NCBI RefSeq assembly: GCF_000591055.1
Contig: NC_020388.1
Span: forward strand, 1,798,001-1,862,000
From: Natronomonas moolapensis 8.8.11
Lineage (GTDB): Archaea; Halobacteriota; Halobacteria; Halobacteriales; Haloarculaceae
Length of the DNA stretch: 64,000 nt
Reading direction: 5' to 3'
Shown: positions 9,870-19,838 of the stretch, in pieces
Layout: every line of letters begins with the position of its first letter
How positions within the stretch are numbered: the first letter of the stretch is position 1
Translations under genes and position numbers: made by a program
The notes under the pieces: model-generated
Database searches by the model: none
What the model was told of the DNA's origin: nothing
The model's input: only the letters and a program-made list of their open reading frames with translations

Positions 9870-11222
9870 ATGGACCTGTTCGGAACCGCCGGTGTCCGCG
9901 GGGACGCACGGACGAAAGTGACGCCGTCGCTCGCGTTGGCCGTCGGGCGGACGGCCGCCGACGCCGGCTCGGAGTTCGTCGTCGGCCGCGACGGTCGCGA
10001 GACCGGCGAGGGGATCGCCGCCGCTGTCGAAGCGGGGCTCGAAAGCGGCGGTGCGGATGTTCATCGTCTCGGTCGACTCCCGACGCCGGCGCTCGCGTAC
10101 GCGAGCCGCGGTCGTCGGGGGGTCATGATCACCGCGAGCCACAACCCACCGAGTGACAACGGGTTGAAGCTGTTCGTCGACGGGACCGAGTACGACCGCG
10201 AGGCCGAGCGCCGGATCGAATCGCGGCTCGACGGCGAGTCGGGGGCGACCCCCGTCCCGTGGCACCAGTGGGGAGCCGGGGGGACACTCGACGTGCTGGC
10301 GCGGTATCGCGCCGACGTCGCCGAGTACGCCCGCGACACCGCCGGGGGCTGTACGGGACTCAGTGTCGCCGTCGACTGCGGAAACGGGACGGCGAGTCTC
10401 GTGGTTCCGGACGTCCTTCGCGAACTCGGGGCCGGCGTCACCGCGCTCAATGCCAACGTCGACGGTCACTTTCCTAGCCGGGAGTCGAAGCCGACGCCGG
10501 AGAGTCTAGCGGACCTCCGCCGGTTCGTCGCCGACGGCGACAGCGACCTCGGGATCGGCCACGACGGCGACGGCGACCGAATCGTCGTACTCGACGCTGA
10601 CGGCGATGTCGTCCACGAAGACACGGTCCTCGCTATCGTCGCCGAGCACTACGTCGCGGCGACGGAGGCGGCCGACCCCGTCGTCGTGACGACACCGAAT
10701 GCCTCCGGCCGGATCGACGAGCGGATCGAGGCGGCCGGCGGCCGGATCGAACGGGTTCGACTTGGTGCGCTCCACGAGGGCATCGCGACCGCCGAGGCGT
10801 CGGGCGGGACCGTCGTCTTCGCGGCTGAGCCGTGGAAGCATACGCACCCCTCGTTCGGCCCCTGGATCGACGCCGCCGTCAGCGCGGCGGTCGTCGCCGG
10901 CCTCACGGCCTCGACGGGGCTTTCGGCCCTTCGCGAGCCGGTCCAGGAGCGTCCCTACCGAAAGGTGAGTTTCGACTGTCCGGACGACCGGAAGCCGGCC
11001 GCGATGGCCCGGCTCGAATCGCGGCTTCCGGAGGCGTTCCCGGAGGCGGACGTAGACGCCGAATACGGACTCAGGTTGAGCCGTCCGGACGGCTCGTGGC
11101 TGCTCGTCAGGCCGAGCGGGACCGAGCCGTACCTCCGGCTGTACGCAGAGAGCAACGACGTCGACGCGCTCGTCGACGCCGCCTCGGAGCCCATCGAGCG
11201 TGCCATCGACGAGTCGGGGTAG
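9870..11222 (+). CDS. glmM: Phosphohexomutase (phosphoglucosamine/phosphomannomutase family)
   Basis: This alpha-D-phosphohexomutase converts hexose-6-phosphate and hexose-1-phosphate (glucosamine, mannose or glucose) for nucleotide-sugar and glycan synthesis. The phosphoserine loop T-A-S-H-N-P puts the catalytic serine at residue 90. The metal loop D-G-D-G-D-R is at 232-237 and the C-terminal phosphate-binding R-P-S-G-T-E-P-Y-L-R is present. The 450-aa length is typical. GlmM is my choice because archaeal paralogues of this size are usually annotated so, but substrate preference cannot be read from the sequence. Confidence 0.8.
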   Translation: MDLFGTAGVRGDARTKVTPSLALAVGRTAADAGSEFVVGRDGRETGEGIAAAVEAGLESGGADVHRLGRLPTPALAYASRGRRGVMITASHNPPSDNGLKLFVDGTEYDREAERRIESRLDGESGATPVPWHQWGAGGTLDVLARYRADVAEYARDTAGGCTGLSVAVDCGNGTASLVVPDVLRELGAGVTALNANVDGHFPSRESKPTPESLADLRRFVADGDSDLGIGHDGDGDRIVVLDADGDVVHEDTVLAIVAEHYVAATEAADPVVVTTPNASGRIDERIEAAGGRIERVRLGALHEGIATAEASGGTVVFAAEPWKHTHPSFGPWIDAAVSAAVVAGLTASTGLSALREPVQERPYRKVSFDCPDDRKPAAMARLESRLPEAFPEADVDAEYGLRLSRPDGSWLLVRPSGTEPYLRLYAESNDVDALVDAASEPIERAIDESG

Positions 11223-11252: not shown

Positions 11253-12209
11253 TTAGTTGAACAGGTCCTTGCGTTCGGCCTCGGAGAGTCGGACATCCGG
11301 GTGAGCGTACGCCGAACACTCCTCGCACTCGTAGGAGCCACCGTGCGCTTCAAATTGGTAGATCGGATACCCGAAAAAGAAAAACGCATCCTCCCGGTGG
11401 CGTTCGACGATCGCATCGGCGATCGCGCCACAATTTGGACAGTAGTCCTCGTCCATTGCCGGGACCTGGTAGGTGATTTTTTTCCGACCGATGAATGCCT
11501 CCCTGTAGGCCGCACTCTGTGAGGTCTGGATCAGATCCTCCACGGGGAAGTCGTCGGTTCGCACGGTGTTGTCGTGGCCGGTTTCAGTGGCGACCGTAAC
11601 GTTAGTGTACGCACTCACCTCGACGGTGTTGTTCGAGCCGACGAAATGGAGTCGGAGGCTGCCGTGGCCATCAACCCGGACACTGTTGTTCCAGCCGGTC
11701 AAATAGAGGTCGAACTCCGAGGTGCTATTTTTGATCCGAGCCGCGTTCCGACCGCCGGTAACCGATACCCCAGTGTCGGGCCCGGTGACGTCCAACTCGC
11801 GGTCCCACCCCGTCAGGCTGTCGTCGTATTGCGTTCGGGGCAGTGGGGCAGTGTCGCTCTCGTCGCGAAACCGCTGTTCGTCGCCGAGTATCTGGAGATG
11901 GCCATCGACCGCGTCGTGCTCGATGAAGACGTCCTCGGCATCGACGACGAGGACATCACCCGAGGCCCCGCCCGGTTCGATGTATCCGTCCTCAATCGTC
12001 CCGCTGACCTCCGTTTCTATGGGGCCGATATCAGCTGTTTCGCCCGCCGCCGTATTGGTGTAGACGTATTCCGCGTTCAAAATCTTTAGATCACCGTCGA
12101 CGGCGCCTGATTTGACGTAGACGTTCTCGGGTGCAACGAGTTTGACGGGAGGCTGTTCGTCACCGTTGAGCGTAACATCGCCGGAGTAGGTCGTCGAATG
12201 GGAGGTCAT
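11253..12209 (-). CDS. Beta-solenoid protein with C-terminal zinc ribbon (last gene of the 11-18 kb operon)
   Basis: Residues 1 to about 230 show short repeating units (GAVDGDLKI, GASGDVLVV, NNSVRVDGHGSLRL, NNTVEVSAYTNVTV) typical of polymer-forming/DUF3060-like beta-solenoids, without a signal peptide. The C-terminal 70 residues carry two C-x2-C pairs (Y-C-P-N-C-G and Y-E-C-E-E-C) that would form a zinc ribbon. It lies 56 nt downstream of the pentapeptide-repeat channel gene on the same strand and is likely co-transcribed. I know no protein with this exact combination. A scaffold or adaptor role for the channel is only an inference. Confidence 0.7.
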   Translation of the reverse strand: MTSHSTTYSGDVTLNGDEQPPVKLVAPENVYVKSGAVDGDLKILNAEYVYTNTAAGETADIGPIETEVSGTIEDGYIEPGGASGDVLVVDAEDVFIEHDAVDGHLQILGDEQRFRDESDTAPLPRTQYDDSLTGWDRELDVTGPDTGVSVTGGRNAARIKNSTSEFDLYLTGWNNSVRVDGHGSLRLHFVGSNNTVEVSAYTNVTVATETGHDNTVRTDDFPVEDLIQTSQSAAYREAFIGRKKITYQVPAMDEDYCPNCGAIADAIVERHREDAFFFFGYPIYQFEAHGGSYECEECSAYAHPDVRLSEAERKDLFN

Positions 12210-12265
12210 CGTTGTCGACTCGTTGTGGGTTGTATTCGTGATCGCGAGTAGTGCATCTTTGTGTG

Positions 12266-14467
12266 TTAGATTTCGCTTCGTTTGATCAAGGCGTACAGGA
12301 ACAGCCCCGCAAGGATCACGTTCATGTAGACGAGGAACGCGGAGACGAATCTGGCACCGGGGCCGATCGGGCCGATGTTACCGTAGCCGACCGTGAGGAA
12401 CGTGATATACGAAAAGTACAGGTTCAACCCGAGCGTCCGGAGCCCGCCAGACGTGGCGAGTTCGGAAGCCGCGATCTGTCCGGCCCCGGTTTCGAAGGGC
12501 GAGCCCCCGAGTGCAAACAGGAGACCAGCAAACAGCGGAAACAGGGCAAACACCGTCGTGATTCGATAGAGCCGCAACCCGTAGCCGCACGAAATCCCGA
12601 GAAACAGGTTCTCGATGCCGCGAAACGCGTTCTGCCCCCGCGTTAGCAGTGTTTCGTCCGAGTCAGCGGCGATCTCGAAGAACTTTCGACGGGCGTGCTG
12701 TTGTCGCTTGACACGGAACTCGCCGGCGGCTTTCACATTGCTCTGGGCGGACGCGCTATTTTTCGCCCTGAGATACGTCTTTTCGACGACATCGGGTGTC
12801 ATTTCCACGGCGAACTCATAAGGACACGTCCCATCATCGAAGCTGTGGAGGTTCCAGTCGTTGCGGTCCAGATAGTCGGTGTGGTCGGAGAAACTGAACT
12901 CCTCGAAGGTCGTATCACAGAACCGCGCGTAGTCGAGAAGCTCCCGTTCGTCGGTCGGGTTCTCCGCGCTCAACTCGACGTCGCCGACCGTCGACCGCGT
13001 CAAATCGAACCGAACCCAGCCGTCTTCGGGTTGAATAATACGCCCCTCAGAGATAGTCGCCTCGGTGAAGTTGAAATACGTGTCGTCACCGAACGACATG
13101 GCTTTTAATCGAAGCGAGTCGCTGAACATCGCGTCAGTGAAGTCCGCGCTCTGTTTGAACGCAACCTCAGTGAACTCCGCCGAAGTGCAGGTGACGTCAC
13201 TGAAATCGACGGCACCGCCAAACGTCGCATTTCGGAACACCGCATCGTCCTCTAGGTGATTGGTTCCGCCGTTGAAAATCGCTCCACGAAAGGTTGTAGT
13301 CCCCGCAAAGACGGCGTTCGTGAACATGGCGTCGCCGTCGAACAGAACCTCATCGAAATCGGCTTCCCCGTCGAAACGGACGTCCTCGAACAGCACATCG
13401 TCGGCGAACTCGCTTCGCTTGAACACCACATCATCGGCGAATTCGGCATCCGTGAAATTCGAATAGCCGAACCGTCCCCGCTCAAAGGTCACGTGGTCGC
13501 TGAAGGTGGCACCGGCGAACGATGCATCGTCCACAAGTAGTGCCGTCCCGCCGCGACACTCGACGCCGCGGAAACTCGCCTTCTGATCAAAGTGCGTGTC
13601 GTCGAATAATACGTCCCCGGCGAAGGTGACCTCGTCGAAGTCCGCAGCACCAGCGAACGTACTGCCGGTGAACGCGACCGTGCCTGAAGCGGTACTCTTC
13701 TCGAAGTTGGCGTCACCGTCGAACGAGACGTCCCTAAACTCGACGTACTCGAAGTCGGCGTATAGGAACGAAACGTCGCCGTTGAATGCTGCCCCGGAGA
13801 ACGTCGTGTTGTCGCCGGTCTCGTTGGACCGACCGTAGAACTGTGTGGCTTCAAAGCTCGCCTCGGCGTTGAACGCTGCGTTAGTAAAACGCACGTCGTT
13901 AGCGAATTCCACCTCGTCGAAGATTGCCTCTCGGGTGAAGACAGCCCCGGTGAAATCGGTATCGTCGCCCGTAACGGTCGCCTCAAGCCAACCGACCGCA
14001 TCAGTAAATCGGGTACCCGCACAGAGCACTCCGTTTTCGAACGTACAGTTGTCGGCCACTAGCCCACCGACGGTGCTGTGACGGAGGTCGAGTTGTTCTT
14101 CGAACCGCCCATGGAGGACAGATATCCCGCCAGGAATAGTCGTATGACGGAGGTCGACTGGATGTTGATCGTCGCTTTCGATATCGATGTACTCAAGATC
14201 CAGCCGTGGGAGGTGGGCTCCGATAAACGCCCGCGTCGACTCGGCGTCACTTTTGAGTTTTCCGATGAGCGACTCGGTGAGCTTAGCTGTCGAGATACCG
14301 GCGGCAGCACGCTCGTCGGGGGCCATATGGAATGGGCAGTAGTCACTCGTTGGGTGCTGCTCGTGGGGACACGACCAGCGACGGTCGACCGATGTCACCT
14401 CGTGCGCCTCAGGATCAAACTCGTAGCGACAGGTCATGAGCGGGGGCGAAGCATTTGTTGCTGACAT
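12266..14467 (-). CDS. Pentapeptide-repeat protein fused to a two-helix K+-channel pore
   Basis: This is a 733-aa fusion. Residues 10-50 have a Cys/His cluster (TCRYEFDP, then CPHEQHPTSDYCPFH) that may bind zinc. Residues of about 80-490 are pentapeptide repeats of the A(D/N)F type (for example ADFDEVTFAGDVLFDDTHFD), which form a quadrilateral beta-helix. The C-terminal 120 residues contain a hydrophobic helix (TTVFALFPLFAGLLFALGG), a pore helix with the K+ selectivity filter T-V-G-Y-G at 692-696, and a second helix ending at A-L-I-K-R-S-E-I. The pore is of the Ion_trans_2 type, so a tetramer in the membrane is expected, with the beta-helix in the cytoplasm. The gene is third or fourth in its operon, 12 nt after the DUF2617-like gene. 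Confidence 0.88.
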   Translation of the reverse strand: MSATNASPPLMTCRYEFDPEAHEVTSVDRRWSCPHEQHPTSDYCPFHMAPDERAAAGISTAKLTESLIGKLKSDAESTRAFIGAHLPRLDLEYIDIESDDQHPVDLRHTTIPGGISVLHGRFEEQLDLRHSTVGGLVADNCTFENGVLCAGTRFTDAVGWLEATVTGDDTDFTGAVFTREAIFDEVEFANDVRFTNAAFNAEASFEATQFYGRSNETGDNTTFSGAAFNGDVSFLYADFEYVEFRDVSFDGDANFEKSTASGTVAFTGSTFAGAADFDEVTFAGDVLFDDTHFDQKASFRGVECRGGTALLVDDASFAGATFSDHVTFERGRFGYSNFTDAEFADDVVFKRSEFADDVLFEDVRFDGEADFDEVLFDGDAMFTNAVFAGTTTFRGAIFNGGTNHLEDDAVFRNATFGGAVDFSDVTCTSAEFTEVAFKQSADFTDAMFSDSLRLKAMSFGDDTYFNFTEATISEGRIIQPEDGWVRFDLTRSTVGDVELSAENPTDERELLDYARFCDTTFEEFSFSDHTDYLDRNDWNLHSFDDGTCPYEFAVEMTPDVVEKTYLRAKNSASAQSNVKAAGEFRVKRQQHARRKFFEIAADSDETLLTRGQNAFRGIENLFLGISCGYGLRLYRITTVFALFPLFAGLLFALGGSPFETGAGQIAASELATSGGLRTLGLNLYFSYITFLTVGYGNIGPIGPGARFVSAFLVYMNVILAGLFLYALIKRSEI

Positions 14468-14479
14468 GATGCTCTGTTG

Positions 14480-15070
14480 TTAGTTGATTTTACTCGCTGG
14501 CGTCTCGTACGCCGGCGTGTCGTCCGCGGTATCGGCCGCGAGATCGGTGAAGATGTGTTCCGAATACAGCGCCAGGCCGTACTCCGGATATGTGTGGTAC
14601 GTCTCGTAGGTGGTGGCCGACCGGCAGTTGATCGCCGTATACGCCCCCGGTTCGAACCGGTAGACGATATCGAACTGTTTGGGCCCCGGAAACGCCGATA
14701 TCGGCTCGCGCCTGATCGTAGTAGCTACTCCGACCGGTCCGAGCCGGTAGCGGCCGCTGTGTATTGTTTGTCCGTCGTCACTGGCCGGGGCACCGATCGA
14801 GCAGCGACGCTCTGTCGGGCAGCGGTCGTTTGACAGTCCGGACTCGGCTGGCAGTTCCACTGTCGCTACGCGCCCCTGTCGGATCGGTTTACACGAAAAC
14901 AGTTCGTAGAAACCGAGGGTCGGAGCACAAACGCAATGGGAGTCTCCGATCACAAAAAAGACGAATTCGGACCCGAAGAACCGTCTCTGTGCCTGCCGTT
15001 TGATGTCGTAGGTCGCGAGCGGAGGCCGCTCGGTGTCGTATGCGAGGTAGAGACGCTCCGGTGCAGTCAT
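14480..15070 (-). CDS. DUF2617-like protein
   Basis: This 196-aa soluble protein of unknown function is placed in DUF2617 by memory of the family pattern. I-G-D-S-H-C-V resembles the early (L/I)GxSH motif, and TTYETYHTYPEYGLALYSEH resembles the C-terminal W-x-x-W-H-A-Y-P motif. Its start overlaps the stop of the upstream spermidine-synthase-like gene (ATGA), implying translational coupling. In bacteria DUF2617 genes are often found beside membrane spermidine-synthase-like genes and ion channels, as far as I recall, and the same partners occur here. The assignment needs a profile search. Confidence 0.6.
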   Translation of the reverse strand: MTAPERLYLAYDTERPPLATYDIKRQAQRRFFGSEFVFFVIGDSHCVCAPTLGFYELFSCKPIRQGRVATVELPAESGLSNDRCPTERRCSIGAPASDDGQTIHSGRYRLGPVGVATTIRREPISAFPGPKQFDIVYRFEPGAYTAINCRSATTYETYHTYPEYGLALYSEHIFTDLAADTADDTPAYETPASKIN

Positions 15071-16851
15071 TGGTCCCGTTTGATTTTTGTCTCGACGATG
15101 AGATCGTAGTTCGGATCGAAGACGCTGTTCGGCTCGACGCCGGCGTACCGCGGTGTTTCGCTCCAGTCCACCGATCGGTACTGTTCGCCGTGGGTCCGGA
15201 CGTACTCAGTACCGTTTGCCGGGACGATGGTCGATTGTGGCTCATGTGGGGCAAATACGAAGAACCGTTCACCGAGTTGGTCAGTGCCGTCGGCGTTGGG
15301 ATCGTTGTACGCGTAGTACCCCATCCGGTGATCGAACCCAGCCTCACGAACAGTGTTCATGTACGCTTTGTGATGTGGGCCGTACGTGTAGCCCGAATAC
15401 CCCCAGGTCACGACGGTCCCGCCGTCAGCCAACCGATCGGCGAGCATGCTATAGAATTCAACCGAGTACAACTGCAGTCCGTCATCACTCTTCGCTCCCG
15501 GGAGATCCAGCAGAATGAGATCGTACTCGCGGTCGTGTTGCTGAAGATACGTGTAGATATCCTGCTCGTAGACGGTCAAATTGTCGTACTCGTAGGCATC
15601 GTCGTGATACCGTTCGAGAAACTCGCTGTGTTTGGCCCGGTTCATGAATTCCCCGTCGACATCGACCTGATCGACGCGAACGGTGTGCTTCCGCAGATAG
15701 TTCGCCGCGATCCAGTCGCCCCCGCCCACTACCAACACCTCTGTCTGGGTCGAGTTCTCGTACATCGTCATCGGGACATCGACGAGCCCGTGGTGATAGG
15801 AGCCGGCCCAGCTGTCACACAGCTGTATCGCTGAGTCCAGCCGGAGGCAGGTGTCCGACTCACCGGCGAACAGCTGGTTTTCCGACTCGCCGTTCCACGA
15901 CCGCTCGTAGCGAACGACCTGCTGGTTTCGAGTCGTGTACTGGCCGGTGATCGACGCCGAAACGGTATCCTGGGGGTGTTCGTCTTCGATCAGCGATTCC
16001 ATGTAATACCCGGTCAGTTCGTCGTCAACCGTTTGATGTTGAATCACGACACCCGCATAGACAGCGGTCAAGAGCAGACAGGTTATCAGTACCACTCGGT
16101 GCCCGGGAGAGCCGATCGAAAGACCGTAGCCATCGGTGCTCCGCCCCCCGTCGCTAAACTGCGCCACAAACAGTACGGCTGCGAGACAGTTCAAAAGCGC
16201 CAACACGAACACCGACGGAATCAACCCGAGTCGGGGGTAGAGGACGAACACGTATGCGAGCGCCCCGAAAAGTCCGCCCAAGTAATCCATCGCCAACACG
16301 GTAGAGTAGGTGTCGTACTCCGTACCCTCCCGGTCGGTCCGGAACACTGCCGAGAGCACCTGGTAGGTTCCGTGTTCGAAGGCCCGTCCGATTCGCTCGA
16401 CCCAGCCGGGGGGCGACGACTGGCCGGTTTCGGAGTCGACCATCGACAACAACAGCGGCAACTCGAACCCCGAGAGCACGCCGACAATAACGACTGGCAG
16501 GCGGGCCGCGACCTGCAGGACCTCGTCCGGGAGCGACTGTGGGAGGACAGCGGTATTCACCCAGAGAATGAATAGGAACCCGGCCGGAGCGCTGAGCGCC
16601 AAGTAGACCTCCGTCCGGAAGAAATTCGAATGTCGGGCGTCGTCAAACTGGCGAACGAGAAACGAGCCGACACCGAGAGACGAAAAGAACAACCCGATAG
16701 TGAGTCCATACTGCGTGACGGTCCCACCGTAGACGACTGTCAATAGTTCCGAGTAGACAAGTTCGTAGCCAAAGCTACAGAGGGCGACGATACACGCGAT
16801 CCCGTGTAACGTTGTACGCTCGGGGAGTCCCGACGACGTAGTGTCCGACAT
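15067..16851 (-). CDS. Membrane-anchored spermidine-synthase-like protein
   Basis: About 594 aa. The N-terminal half has six or more membrane helices (for example ACIVALCSFGYELVYSELL and the LGGLFGALAYVFVLYPRLGL region). The C-terminal half is a Rossmann SAM-type domain with V-L-V-V-G-G-G-D-W, acidic V-D-V-D-G-E-F, and L-L-D-L-P-G-A. Canonical aminopropyltransferases have D-x-x-D-P at this last point, with the second Asp catalytic. Here it is G-A, so ordinary spermidine synthesis is doubtful. ATG at 16851 is preferred to a TTG at 16884. The gene overlaps the DUF2617-like gene by 4 nt. Confidence 0.8.
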   Translation of the reverse strand: MSDTTSSGLPERTTLHGIACIVALCSFGYELVYSELLTVVYGGTVTQYGLTIGLFFSSLGVGSFLVRQFDDARHSNFFRTEVYLALSAPAGFLFILWVNTAVLPQSLPDEVLQVAARLPVVIVGVLSGFELPLLLSMVDSETGQSSPPGWVERIGRAFEHGTYQVLSAVFRTDREGTEYDTYSTVLAMDYLGGLFGALAYVFVLYPRLGLIPSVFVLALLNCLAAVLFVAQFSDGGRSTDGYGLSIGSPGHRVVLITCLLLTAVYAGVVIQHQTVDDELTGYYMESLIEDEHPQDTVSASITGQYTTRNQQVVRYERSWNGESENQLFAGESDTCLRLDSAIQLCDSWAGSYHHGLVDVPMTMYENSTQTEVLVVGGGDWIAANYLRKHTVRVDQVDVDGEFMNRAKHSEFLERYHDDAYEYDNLTVYEQDIYTYLQQHDREYDLILLDLPGAKSDDGLQLYSVEFYSMLADRLADGGTVVTWGYSGYTYGPHHKAYMNTVREAGFDHRMGYYAYNDPNADGTDQLGERFFVFAPHEPQSTIVPANGTEYVRTHGEQYRSVDWSETPRYAGVEPNSVFDPNYDLIVETKIKRDQ

Positions 16852-16928
16852 ACTATGTGGGGCCGACAGCCCTGCGACGGTCAAAGGCCGGATTCGGACT
16901 CGGGGAGAGGCTCATGTGTGCGATCCTG

Positions 16929-17702
16929 TCAGATCCGGGGGGATACTTTCCATCGTTCGGTGATCTCCTTGCCGTCGGCGGTCTCTCGAACCCGGAGATC
17001 AAGACACTCCCAGCCGAGATCCGTACCCTCATCAGGGCCCTCAGCTATGACGATGTTAGCGCCAACCCGATACCAGCCAGATTGCAGATCTCGGATCGAG
17101 GGTTCGATCTCCTCATCGGACGGGGAGTTGTAGGTATCATCCCAGTTGAGTGGTCCGGGACCGGGATCTTGCTCCTCGAAGCGGGCGTCCGAACCGATGT
17201 ATGCGACCCCGATCGCGTCGATATCGACCGGATACTGGGTCACCTCGTCGTCGTGGTCATTGTACCAACCACTCGCATACGAGCCACCCCAGAACCATGC
17301 GCGCCCGTTTGCAGTCCGCGGGGCCGAGCTATACCCGCCACTCCCGCGGCCAGTCGCTCCACGCCCCTTTGCGGCCCGGGCCGTACCGACCGGCGATAGG
17401 ACAGCAAGTGCTTGGGGAATCGCGACCGACTCAGCAGCGTCTGTCTGATCACCGGATCCGGACACCGCGTCGACAGCGAGATCTCGCCGGGACTGCACCC
17501 AACACTCCGACTCGCCGTGTGGGTCAATCCGGAGTGTCGACCCATCGGCTGCGAGTTCGACCTCGTCAATCACGTTTGACTTCCGAGGCGGCGGTTCCGT
17601 ACTGCTCCCGGTACAGCCTGCAAGAGCCGCCAGCCCACCGGTAGCGACGATGCCACTCGCTGTGAGCAGCGCGCGCCGTTCGATCGATTGCCTATGGCTC
17701 AT
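16929..17702 (-). CDS. Tat-exported lipoprotein of unknown function (first gene of operon)
   Basis: The N-terminus has a twin-arginine signal (R-R-A-L-L-T-A-S-G) and a lipobox (A-L-A-G-C), so it is probably exported folded and lipid-anchored outside the cell. A Gly/Arg/Ser-rich linker (GRGATGRGSGGYSS) precedes a beta-rich tail with aromatic stretches (W-F-W-G-G-S-Y-A-S-G-W). I recognise no family. The next gene starts 77 nt downstream on the same strand. ATG at 17702 gives a standard Tat signal; a second ATG seven codons upstream is possible. Confidence 0.7.
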   Translation of the reverse strand: MSHRQSIERRALLTASGIVATGGLAALAGCTGSSTEPPPRKSNVIDEVELAADGSTLRIDPHGESECWVQSRRDLAVDAVSGSGDQTDAAESVAIPQALAVLSPVGTARAAKGRGATGRGSGGYSSAPRTANGRAWFWGGSYASGWYNDHDDEVTQYPVDIDAIGVAYIGSDARFEEQDPGPGPLNWDDTYNSPSDEEIEPSIRDLQSGWYRVGANIVIAEGPDEGTDLGWECLDLRVRETADGKEITERWKVSPRI

Positions 17703-18251: not shown

Positions 18252-19730
18252 TTACTCCGAGCCGAGTCGGCTGGCCGTCTCCGCGATCTCGTGTATTTCG
18301 GCGGTTTGTTCTTCGTTCGCCGCGGCGATGGTCTCGATCTCTTCGGACACCTCGTTGAGATCAGCGACCAGCGCATCGACCATGCTTGCGACTTCCTCCG
18401 TCGTCGCCGCCTGGTCGTCCGTTGCATTAGATACTTCTTGGATACCCTGGGCGGACTCCTGAACGGCATCAAGGGTTTTTTCGAGATTCCGAATCGTCTC
18501 GGCGACCTCTTCCATTCCGTATTCGACTCGCTCGGTGACTACGCCGAGGCTCTCTGCGGTCTCTTCGATGTCGGTTTCGATCTGTTCGATCGTTTGTTCG
18601 ATCTCCCCGGCGTTCTGTTTGGTTTCGGTTGCCAGCGACTTGACCTCGTCCGCGACGACCGCGAATCCCTCCCCGGCTTCATCCGCTCGCGCCGCCTCGA
18701 TCGAGGCGTTCAACGCCAAAATGTTCGTCTGATCCGCGATCTCGTTGATCACCGTCGTAAAGTCGTTTACCGCATCCATCTGTTCTTGTACCGTCTCCAT
18801 GTTGGTCGAGGCGTTTCGGACCGCTGTTTGAATATCCTCCATCGCCGCTCGGGCATCGCTGGCCGACTCGTTCCCTGACTCGGTGAGTGTTTCCGCCCGC
18901 TCGCTCGTGTGAGCCACCTCGGTCGCCGTCGAAGCGATCTCCTCGATCGTCGCACTCAGATTGCCGAGTTCGTTCGAGGCCTCTTGCATCCGATCAGTCT
19001 GGTCAGTCACCGAATCGCTGACGATGGTTGCGCTTTCTGTGATGTGCTCTGCCGCCTCGGAGACCTCCTCGATCGGCGCTTCAAGCTCGCTTTCGACCCG
19101 ATCCATAAGCGCCTCCTGTTCGGCCACAGTCTCTTCGATCTCTTGGCTGTACGAGTCGATGTAGGTGTCCATCGCCACCTGCTGATCGAGATTGATGAGC
19201 TTTTGAACAGCAAGTATCTGGTCGGTCAGCGTCTCGACGGTGGCGGTCGCCTCAGCGTTCAGATCCTCGGTGGCACGCTCCACGAGTGCGTCGAGGATCC
19301 CGCGATAATAGACGCTGTACGCCCCGAAATAGATTTTCGGCCCCAGATCGAGCATGTCGTGAATCTTGCCGATCCGGGCACGCCTATCGAAGTACTGTTG
19401 ATCGTACTCGCCCTGTCCAAGTTCGATCAGATACTGCTGTTGGTCGCGTTTGAGCGCCTGAATCGGTTTGGAGGATGAGTCCAGAATGGCGATCGTTTCG
19501 TCGTACGTCTGGAGATGTCGGTAGAACTCTTCGACCAGCTCCTCCGCGACGGTGTCGAATATCTCACTCGCGTCGGCGAGCTCTCGAGCATCTTCGTCAG
19601 TGAACTGCGTGTACTCTTTGCGCCAGGCGATCTCGTCGGCGTCGATCCCGATCCGCTCAGTTAGCTCCGCACCGACGACACCCGCTCGTTCCGTCTCCGT
19701 TATTTTCTTCGACTCCTGTTCAGTGCTCAT
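18252..19730 (-). CDS. hemAT: HemAT-like globin-coupled methyl-accepting transducer
   Basis: This soluble aerotaxis sensor has a protoglobin domain (residues of about 20-185) with a putative proximal haem ligand His124 in A-R-I-G-K-I-H-D-M-L. A cytoplasmic chemoreceptor signalling domain follows, with hairpin tip INEIADQTNILALNASIEAA and methylation-type helices. There are no membrane segments. The family binds O2 and signals through CheA/CheW to the archaellum motor. At 492 aa it is close to Halobacterium HemAT. ATG at 19730 is chosen over an upstream alternative. The gene is divergent from the LOV kinase. Confidence 0.9.
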   Translation of the reverse strand: MSTEQESKKITETERAGVVGAELTERIGIDADEIAWRKEYTQFTDEDARELADASEIFDTVAEELVEEFYRHLQTYDETIAILDSSSKPIQALKRDQQQYLIELGQGEYDQQYFDRRARIGKIHDMLDLGPKIYFGAYSVYYRGILDALVERATEDLNAEATATVETLTDQILAVQKLINLDQQVAMDTYIDSYSQEIEETVAEQEALMDRVESELEAPIEEVSEAAEHITESATIVSDSVTDQTDRMQEASNELGNLSATIEEIASTATEVAHTSERAETLTESGNESASDARAAMEDIQTAVRNASTNMETVQEQMDAVNDFTTVINEIADQTNILALNASIEAARADEAGEGFAVVADEVKSLATETKQNAGEIEQTIEQIETDIEETAESLGVVTERVEYGMEEVAETIRNLEKTLDAVQESAQGIQEVSNATDDQAATTEEVASMVDALVADLNEVSEEIETIAAANEEQTAEIHEIAETASRLGSE

Positions 19731-19838
19731 AGCGTGTCTTGTCGGCACTCCACCACTTAAACAGATGGGGGAAAATATGTCCGATAACGACTACTGAGTC
19801 GTGTAATTGTTTATTATCCTGCGAGCAAAGCCACCAGT

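Follow-up and report, generated by a model that had tools for sequence, protein, structure and literature searches.

The window analysed here is a stretch of 64,000 nucleotides from Natronomonas moolapensis 8.8.11 (NC_020388.1, positions 1,798,001 to 1,862,000), and positions below are counted from its first letter. Between 11253 and 17702 it carries five minus-strand genes in a row, which encode: a Tat-exported lipoprotein of 257 residues (16929..17702); a 7-TM protein of 594 residues with a C-terminal aminopropyltransferase (spermidine-synthase-like) domain (15067..16851); a DUF2617 protein of 196 residues (14480..15070), proposed here to be a tandem AdoMetDC-fold decarboxylase; a 733-residue fusion of a pentapeptide-repeat solenoid with the pore of a 2-TM K+ channel (12266..14467); and a 318-residue parallel beta-solenoid protein with a C-terminal Zn ribbon (11253..12209). 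The lipoprotein and synthase genes are separated by 77 nt, the synthase and DUF2617 genes overlap by 4 nt, and the two remaining gaps are 12 and 56 nt; the frames, the overlap and these last two gaps agree with the original prediction. Judged from the ORF translations, a chemotaxis transducer-like gene lies upstream (18252-19748, minus strand) and a convergent gene downstream (9870-11222, plus strand). The G+C content of the five-gene segment is 59.1%, compared with 65.3% for the window.

Profile searches find DUF2617 in 32 of 194 haloarchaeal genomes, distributed over 18 genera, and the synthase and Zn-ribbon profiles each match these 32 and no others. Full-length lipoprotein matches occur in the same genomes; elsewhere the matches are of signal-peptide type or fragments. 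(Second, fragmentary relatives of the lipoprotein lie at G154:C7:46602-48036 and G171:C1:1542655-1543560, the latter within a 413-residue open frame.) The channel is encoded in all 32 genomes, and its wider family occurs in others as well. A neighbourhood survey of 27 haloarchaeal loci, about 20 kb each, found all five genes together in 25, far above chance. In genome G039 the five are together across the two ends of a circular contig; on one Haloferax plasmid and in its relative G112 the channel gene is relocated but still encoded, in G112 on a contig separate from the rest. The order lipoprotein-synthase-DUF2617 is constant wherever all three genes are visible, and the genes for the channel and the Zn-ribbon protein stay with them but vary in relative order and in strand. 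Genes that are shuffled in order and strand and yet kept together form the pattern expected of a functional unit, not of frozen synteny. The five genes are one conserved module, and the co-occurrence in other genomes that had been predicted is thereby borne out.

Many copies of the module reside on megaplasmids. DUF2617 and synthase profiles detect no module in the three other sampled genomes of the window's own genus. The closest copy, in G148, belongs to a different family (79-83% identity for four of the proteins, 61% for DUF2617), and copies within the window's own family are more distant. Together, these relationships suggest that the module moves horizontally. Within the phylum but outside the haloarchaea, no DUF2617 was found in 295 sampled genomes.

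Three of the five proteins surround a putative enzymatic core. The lipoprotein has a Tat signal with R9R10 and the lipobox LAGC30 (R9, R10, G29 and C30 are invariant in 23 orthologues), followed by an invariant PPR at residues 38-40 and a Gly/Ser/Arg-rich middle. The channel protein matches Pentapeptide_3 (PF13576, E 2e-43) and Ion_trans_2 (PF07885, E 3e-7), and carries the selectivity filter TVGYG, which fits the K+ channel pattern T(V/I)GYG; G694, Y695 and G696 are invariant among the orthologues. Gating of the pore by the beta-helix is plausible from the order of the domains. The first 47 residues of the channel protein (14327-14467) hold a metal-binding-looking pattern, C...CPHEQH...YCPFH, which roughly one orthologue in two has and the others lack. 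In the Zn-ribbon protein the Cys residues of the CxxC...CxxC pattern are invariant in 23 orthologues, and the AF2 model (pLDDT 89) shows a parallel beta-solenoid with the ribbon C-terminal to it. A fold search with this solenoid returned generic beta-helices only (bactofilin, RTX, and CAP domains) and no functional clue. Zn-ribbon proteins of about 200 residues that lack the first part of the solenoid occur at L043:10248-10856, L045:9258-9854, and L055:10216-10812, in genomes where the channel gene has the opposite orientation.

Members of the channel family are also found without the other four module genes. One (L071:9959-12859, on a Haladaptatus salinisoli plasmid) adjoins a gene annotated as "sporulation protein" (Spo0M type); another (L064:7169-10176) lies beside a 243-residue ORF that may be similar to the L071 neighbour. 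These contexts indicate that channels of this family have other partners. Locus L070 (G041:C1:2736000-2752000) contains two giant pentapeptide-repeat/K+ channels side by side, in frames of 1336 and 1388 residues, and neither a synthase nor a DUF2617 gene was detected in their vicinity; matches to comparable giants occur in G027, G110, G132, G138, and G152.

An earlier study predicted DUF2617 to be an enzyme of beta-sandwich fold, in which two His, one Asp, and one Glu are conserved, and drew no connection to AdoMetDC (PMC11237479). The window protein matches the Pfam DUF2617 profile below the cut-off (E 0.0035); 23 of 24 haloarchaeal orthologues match PF10936 (best E 8.8e-10), and the haloarchaeal and actinobacterial alignments pair in hhalign with 97% probability. 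The AF2 model (pLDDT 85.6, pTM 0.81) was compared with known structures in a VIA fold search. The first seven matches are all of AdoMetDC fold, with Z from 8.0 to 5.5, and the next stands at Z 5.0. Human AdoMetDC leads (1msv, Z 8.0, 147 residues aligned, rmsd 4.3 Å); it is followed by chains of the T. brucei enzyme (6.7-6.3), by the domain of human spermine synthase that resembles AdoMetDC (6.0), and by T. maritima AdoMetDC (5.7 and 5.5). A VIA Z of 8 is by itself middling for this tool, and it is the agreement of all the top matches that carries weight. Foldseek gave weak E-values for the same model.

Sequence comparison points the same way. A DUF2617 profile run against all PDB sequences gave three matches at E ≤ 10, all AdoMetDC; each is non-significant individually (E 0.26-1.3), and the alignment passes without gaps through T. 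maritima residues 46-77. Aligned by hhalign to a set of 28 SpeD sequences, DUF2617 reaches a score of 39.4 (E 1e-5 for a single comparison), compared with 18.2 for the best of 100 column-shuffled SpeD alignments, 14.3 for the reversed alignment, and at most 17.8 for unrelated alignments; the actinobacterial DUF2617 alignment alone reaches 14.7, short of significance. Neither the window protein nor any of the 24 orthologues matches PF02675 (AdoMet_dc), so DUF2617 is filed here as a relative within the AdoMetDC superfamily and not as a member of PF02675. No internal repeat between the two halves of DUF2617 is detected by hhalign, so the case for a duplication is made by the fold and by the split of the catalytic residues. 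Taken together, model and sequence make it very probable that DUF2617 is homologous to AdoMetDC. That it is an AdoMetDC-fold protein with AdoMetDC catalytic residues is likely a new observation, and one that the original prediction missed.

Conservation of the candidate active site was assessed in 55 DUF2617 sequences, 24 haloarchaeal and 31 actinobacterial. Twelve residues are invariant throughout: G42, S44, H45, E56, C60, F139, A143, T145, T157, H159, Y161, and P162. Half 1 contains Ser44-His45 (14936..14941, minus strand, as are all positions that follow), the proposed pyruvoyl-precursor Ser and its neighbour, and Cys60 (14891..14893), the proposed decarboxylation Cys; the assignment of S44 and C60 depends on the alignment of half 1, which alone scores 15.2 against SpeD in hhalign, inside the shuffle range and non-significant. 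Half 2 contains three elements: Phe139 (14654..14656), aligned with T. maritima AdoMetDC Phe49; Thr145 (14636..14638), aligned with Ser55; and HTYPE at residues 159-163 (14582..14596), aligned with the AdoMetDC sequence HTWPE, including T. maritima His68 and Glu72, so that H159 stands at the place of the processing His. These four T. maritima residues, all covered by the gapless alignment, are known AdoMetDC active-site positions (F223, S229, H243, and E247 in the human enzyme). The placement of Ser and Cys in half 1 and of Phe, Thr, His, and Glu in half 2 is also the layout of eukaryotic class 2 AdoMetDC.

The gene overlapping that for DUF2617 encodes an aminopropyltransferase homologue (Spermine_synth, PF01564, E 3.9e-13). 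The cofactor-binding motif GGGD(379) (15715..15726, minus strand) is invariant in 24 haloarchaeal sequences, and in 14 bacterial sequences the GGG is invariant and followed by D or E. Asp449 (15505..15507, minus strand), equivalent to the catalytic Asp, is present in 24/24 haloarchaeal and 13/14 bacterial sequences, and the catalytic Tyr equivalent, Y352, also is retained. (One actinobacterial synthase gene beside DUF2617, at L274:3561-5105 in G532, has Ala for the catalytic Asp and Glu for the Tyr, and is probably an inactive copy.) The residue three positions past D449 corresponds to the second Asp of the DxxD motif, which in ordinary spermidine synthases contacts the distal amine of putrescine. 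It is Asp in 13 of 14 bacterial sequences and Gly452 in all 24 haloarchaeal ones. The window protein is therefore not classed as a spermidine synthase proper; the replacement suggests an acceptor other than putrescine and makes spermidine synthesis from putrescine unlikely.

Hydropathy assigns seven TM segments to 31 of 38 archaeal and bacterial synthases. In these, Lys and Arg cluster in the N-terminal end and in alternate loops, those that follow TM2, TM4, and TM6, which by the positive-inside rule would place the catalytic domain, after TM7, outside the cell. This extracytoplasmic placement is speculative, and an exported donor would be needed. The pair Cys335...Cys345 (15817..15849, minus strand), invariant in haloarchaea and absent in bacteria, would fit an extracytoplasmic disulfide. 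Three acidic residues within the membrane region (E30, E130, and D189) are invariant in all 38 sequences.

Residue E163 of DUF2617 bears on the substrate. It is invariant in 24/24 haloarchaeal proteins and mostly Gln, otherwise another residue, in actinobacteria, and its AdoMetDC equivalent contacts the ribose of AdoMet. The actinobacterial replacements would suit a pyruvoyl decarboxylase of AdoMetDC fold that acts on a different amino acid (arginine or ornithine, for example), in which case the synthase would use a different donor, or the pair would make a different amine. There is precedent, in that both bacterial and archaeal SpeD homologues have repeatedly turned into decarboxylases of arginine and ornithine (PMC10407285). 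The haloarchaeal invariance of E163 speaks against such a change of substrate, however, as does the strict partnership with a transferase homologue that keeps both GGGD and the catalytic Asp; moreover, arginine decarboxylation in H. volcanii is already provided by another protein, HVO_1958 (PMC5178350). We judge this alternative unlikely.

Decarboxylation of AdoMet would also supply a function otherwise missing from these genomes. In 2016, no AdoMetDC had been found in any sequenced halophile although TM-SpeE homologues were present, raising two questions: the source of dcAdoMet, the aminopropyl donor; and the role of the SpeE homologues (PMC5178350). Our searches detect SpeD in none of the 32 module genomes, which rules out an ordinary SpeD-based polyamine pathway, and in two of the 194 haloarchaeal genomes overall. 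(Those two, at G089:C34:64775-65092 and G138:C2:78495-78722, are contrary to the literature on halophiles, and both genomes lack the module.) Among 178 actinobacterial genomes, DUF2617 occurs in 34, SpeD in 7, and both in 2; in a control set, C. glutamicum and H. volcanii each have DUF2617 and neither has SpeD. Given the rarity of SpeD in both classes, this mutual exclusion is supportive but, taken alone, weak evidence. A tblastn search of plasmids for actinobacterial DUF2617 gave no actinobacterial match. Three actinobacterial genomes (G500, G576, and G616) have two DUF2617 copies each, far apart.

The same observations bear on whether DUF2617 is an enzyme at all. It could be catalytically dead and, by binding AdoMet or dcAdoMet, act as a regulator of the membrane synthase, much as prozyme regulates trypanosome AdoMetDC. 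Paralogues of AdoMetDC that are dead do exist, the VIA matches include AdoMetDC/prozyme entries, and the N-terminal domain of human spermine synthase is AdoMetDC-like and non-catalytic. A dead protein would not need its catalytic residues, though, and all 55 sequences, from two domains of life, keep the Ser of the pyruvoyl site and the Cys, His, and Thr unchanged; nor was any other AdoMetDC found in the 32 module genomes. A dead DUF2617 thus seems distinctly improbable, and an active decarboxylase remains the preferred reading.

Bacterial relatives place the two putative enzymes in a broader context. Bacterial operons that combine DUF2617, a TM-spermidine-synthase, DUF350, DUF4178, and DUF4247 have been described (PMC11237479). 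Actinobacterial loci read DUF4178, DUF2617, DUF4247 lipoprotein, DUF350, TM-synthase (checked with Pfam in L268), and at L263, L265, and L274 DUF2617 and the synthase are the only recognisable members. Two proteobacterial plasmid operons, of Alteromonas and Novosphingobium, combine a TM-synthase with a genuine speD, DUF350, and DUF4178. The TM-synthases seen here are thus accompanied by either SpeD or DUF2617. The original prediction of kinship with the bacterial operons holds for DUF2617 and the TM-synthase, which are common to both, but DUF350, DUF4178, and DUF4247 have no detectable counterpart in the archaeal module: as candidates for distant relatives of DUF4247, DUF4178, and DUF350, the lipoprotein, Zn-ribbon protein, and channel gave no Pfam matches and hhalign probabilities below 3%. 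By these comparisons, the three proteins appear to be lineage-specific. A role of the module in membrane or ion stress is conceivable. A stress system without any polyamine-type chemistry by DUF2617 and the synthase-like protein (the general form of the earlier proposal) accords with the strict linkage of the K+ channel and lipoprotein and with the occurrence of bacterial counterparts among PspA/band-7 envelope-stress operons (PMC11237479), but is very unlikely given the catalytic residues conserved in both putative enzymes and the genuine SpeD genes in bacterial TM-synthase operons.

The AdoMetDC fold and catalytic residues of DUF2617 make the core of the module look like a two-enzyme aminopropyl pathway. 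We therefore favour, as the probable reading, a mobile system for aminopropylation whose output is a cation channel, and in which DUF2617 supplies dcAdoMet to the TM aminopropyltransferase for transfer to an acceptor other than putrescine. DUF2617 would act as a fused pseudo-dimer of the AdoMetDC fold: homology is well supported by sequence and fold, and activity is suggested by the residues. In half 1, S44 would cleave itself to form the pyruvoyl cofactor and C60 would be catalytic; half 2 would contribute F139, T145, H159, and E163, with the roles split between the halves as they are in the class 2 AdoMetDC of eukaryotes; and the product would be dcAdoMet. The 7-TM aminopropyltransferase, to judge from its conserved residues and the gene overlap, would then move the aminopropyl group from dcAdoMet to the non-putrescine acceptor.

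Subsequent steps are speculative. If the transferase domain lies outside, the membrane residues E30, E130, and D189 could carry cationic dcAdoMet or the product, and on the outer face the lipoprotein would be the best candidate for a partner or for the acceptor. Inside, the pentapeptide/K+ channel and the Zn-ribbon solenoid might sense the resulting cation or the membrane state, and adjust K+ flux. The fullest version of the model can be offered only tentatively, as a possibility we doubt: a new class of tandem pyruvoyl AdoMet decarboxylase, shared by haloarchaea and actinobacteria, working with an outward-facing 7-TM aminopropyltransferase that modifies surface molecules and is coupled to a K+ channel. 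We know of no description of extracytoplasmic aminopropylation.

Together, these results make DUF2617 a concrete candidate answer to the questions of the dcAdoMet source and the membrane SpeE homologues in halophiles (PMC5178350). DUF2617 also lies beside TM-synthases in actinobacteria, mycobacteria included, so the same assignment, if right, would give a function to a whole large family so far known as a DUF. The membrane SpeE homologue of H. volcanii, HVO_B0357, has seven TM segments, a transferase domain, and the motif GGGD(W/Y), as does the module synthase, with which it is equated here by that motif. Its deletion gave no phenotype under the conditions used (PMC5178350), and its dcAdoMet source is unexplained in the literature; we propose the DUF2617 protein encoded in the same genome.

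Compared with the bacterial DUF2617 operons, the archaeal module likewise joins DUF2617 and a 7-TM aminopropyltransferase homologue in one operon. The likeness extends to the types of the remaining members (lipoprotein, small membrane protein, beta-rich protein). The archaeal synthase differs in the Gly at the distal-amine position and in its additional invariant Cys pair.

With AdoMetDC (class 1b SpeD and eukaryotic class 2), DUF2617 shares the fold and the set of a pyruvoyl-type Ser-His, Cys, and Phe/Thr(Ser)/His/Glu; like class 2 AdoMetDC, it is fused from two halves. Differences are that DUF2617 is shorter, that half 1 lacks HTWPE and half 2 the pyruvoyl Ser, and that Thr replaces Ser at the processing position. 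Bacterial SpeD-SpeDC fusions, encoded next to speE, likewise consist of a single chain with two halves of SpeD fold, but are recognisable SpeD sequences, unlike DUF2617 (PMC10407285). That study found extant archaea to have no SpeD fusion; if the proposed model is correct, DUF2617 would provide a prokaryotic parallel to the fused layout of eukaryotic AdoMetDC, reported absent from archaea, and might even be related to it (PMC10407285).
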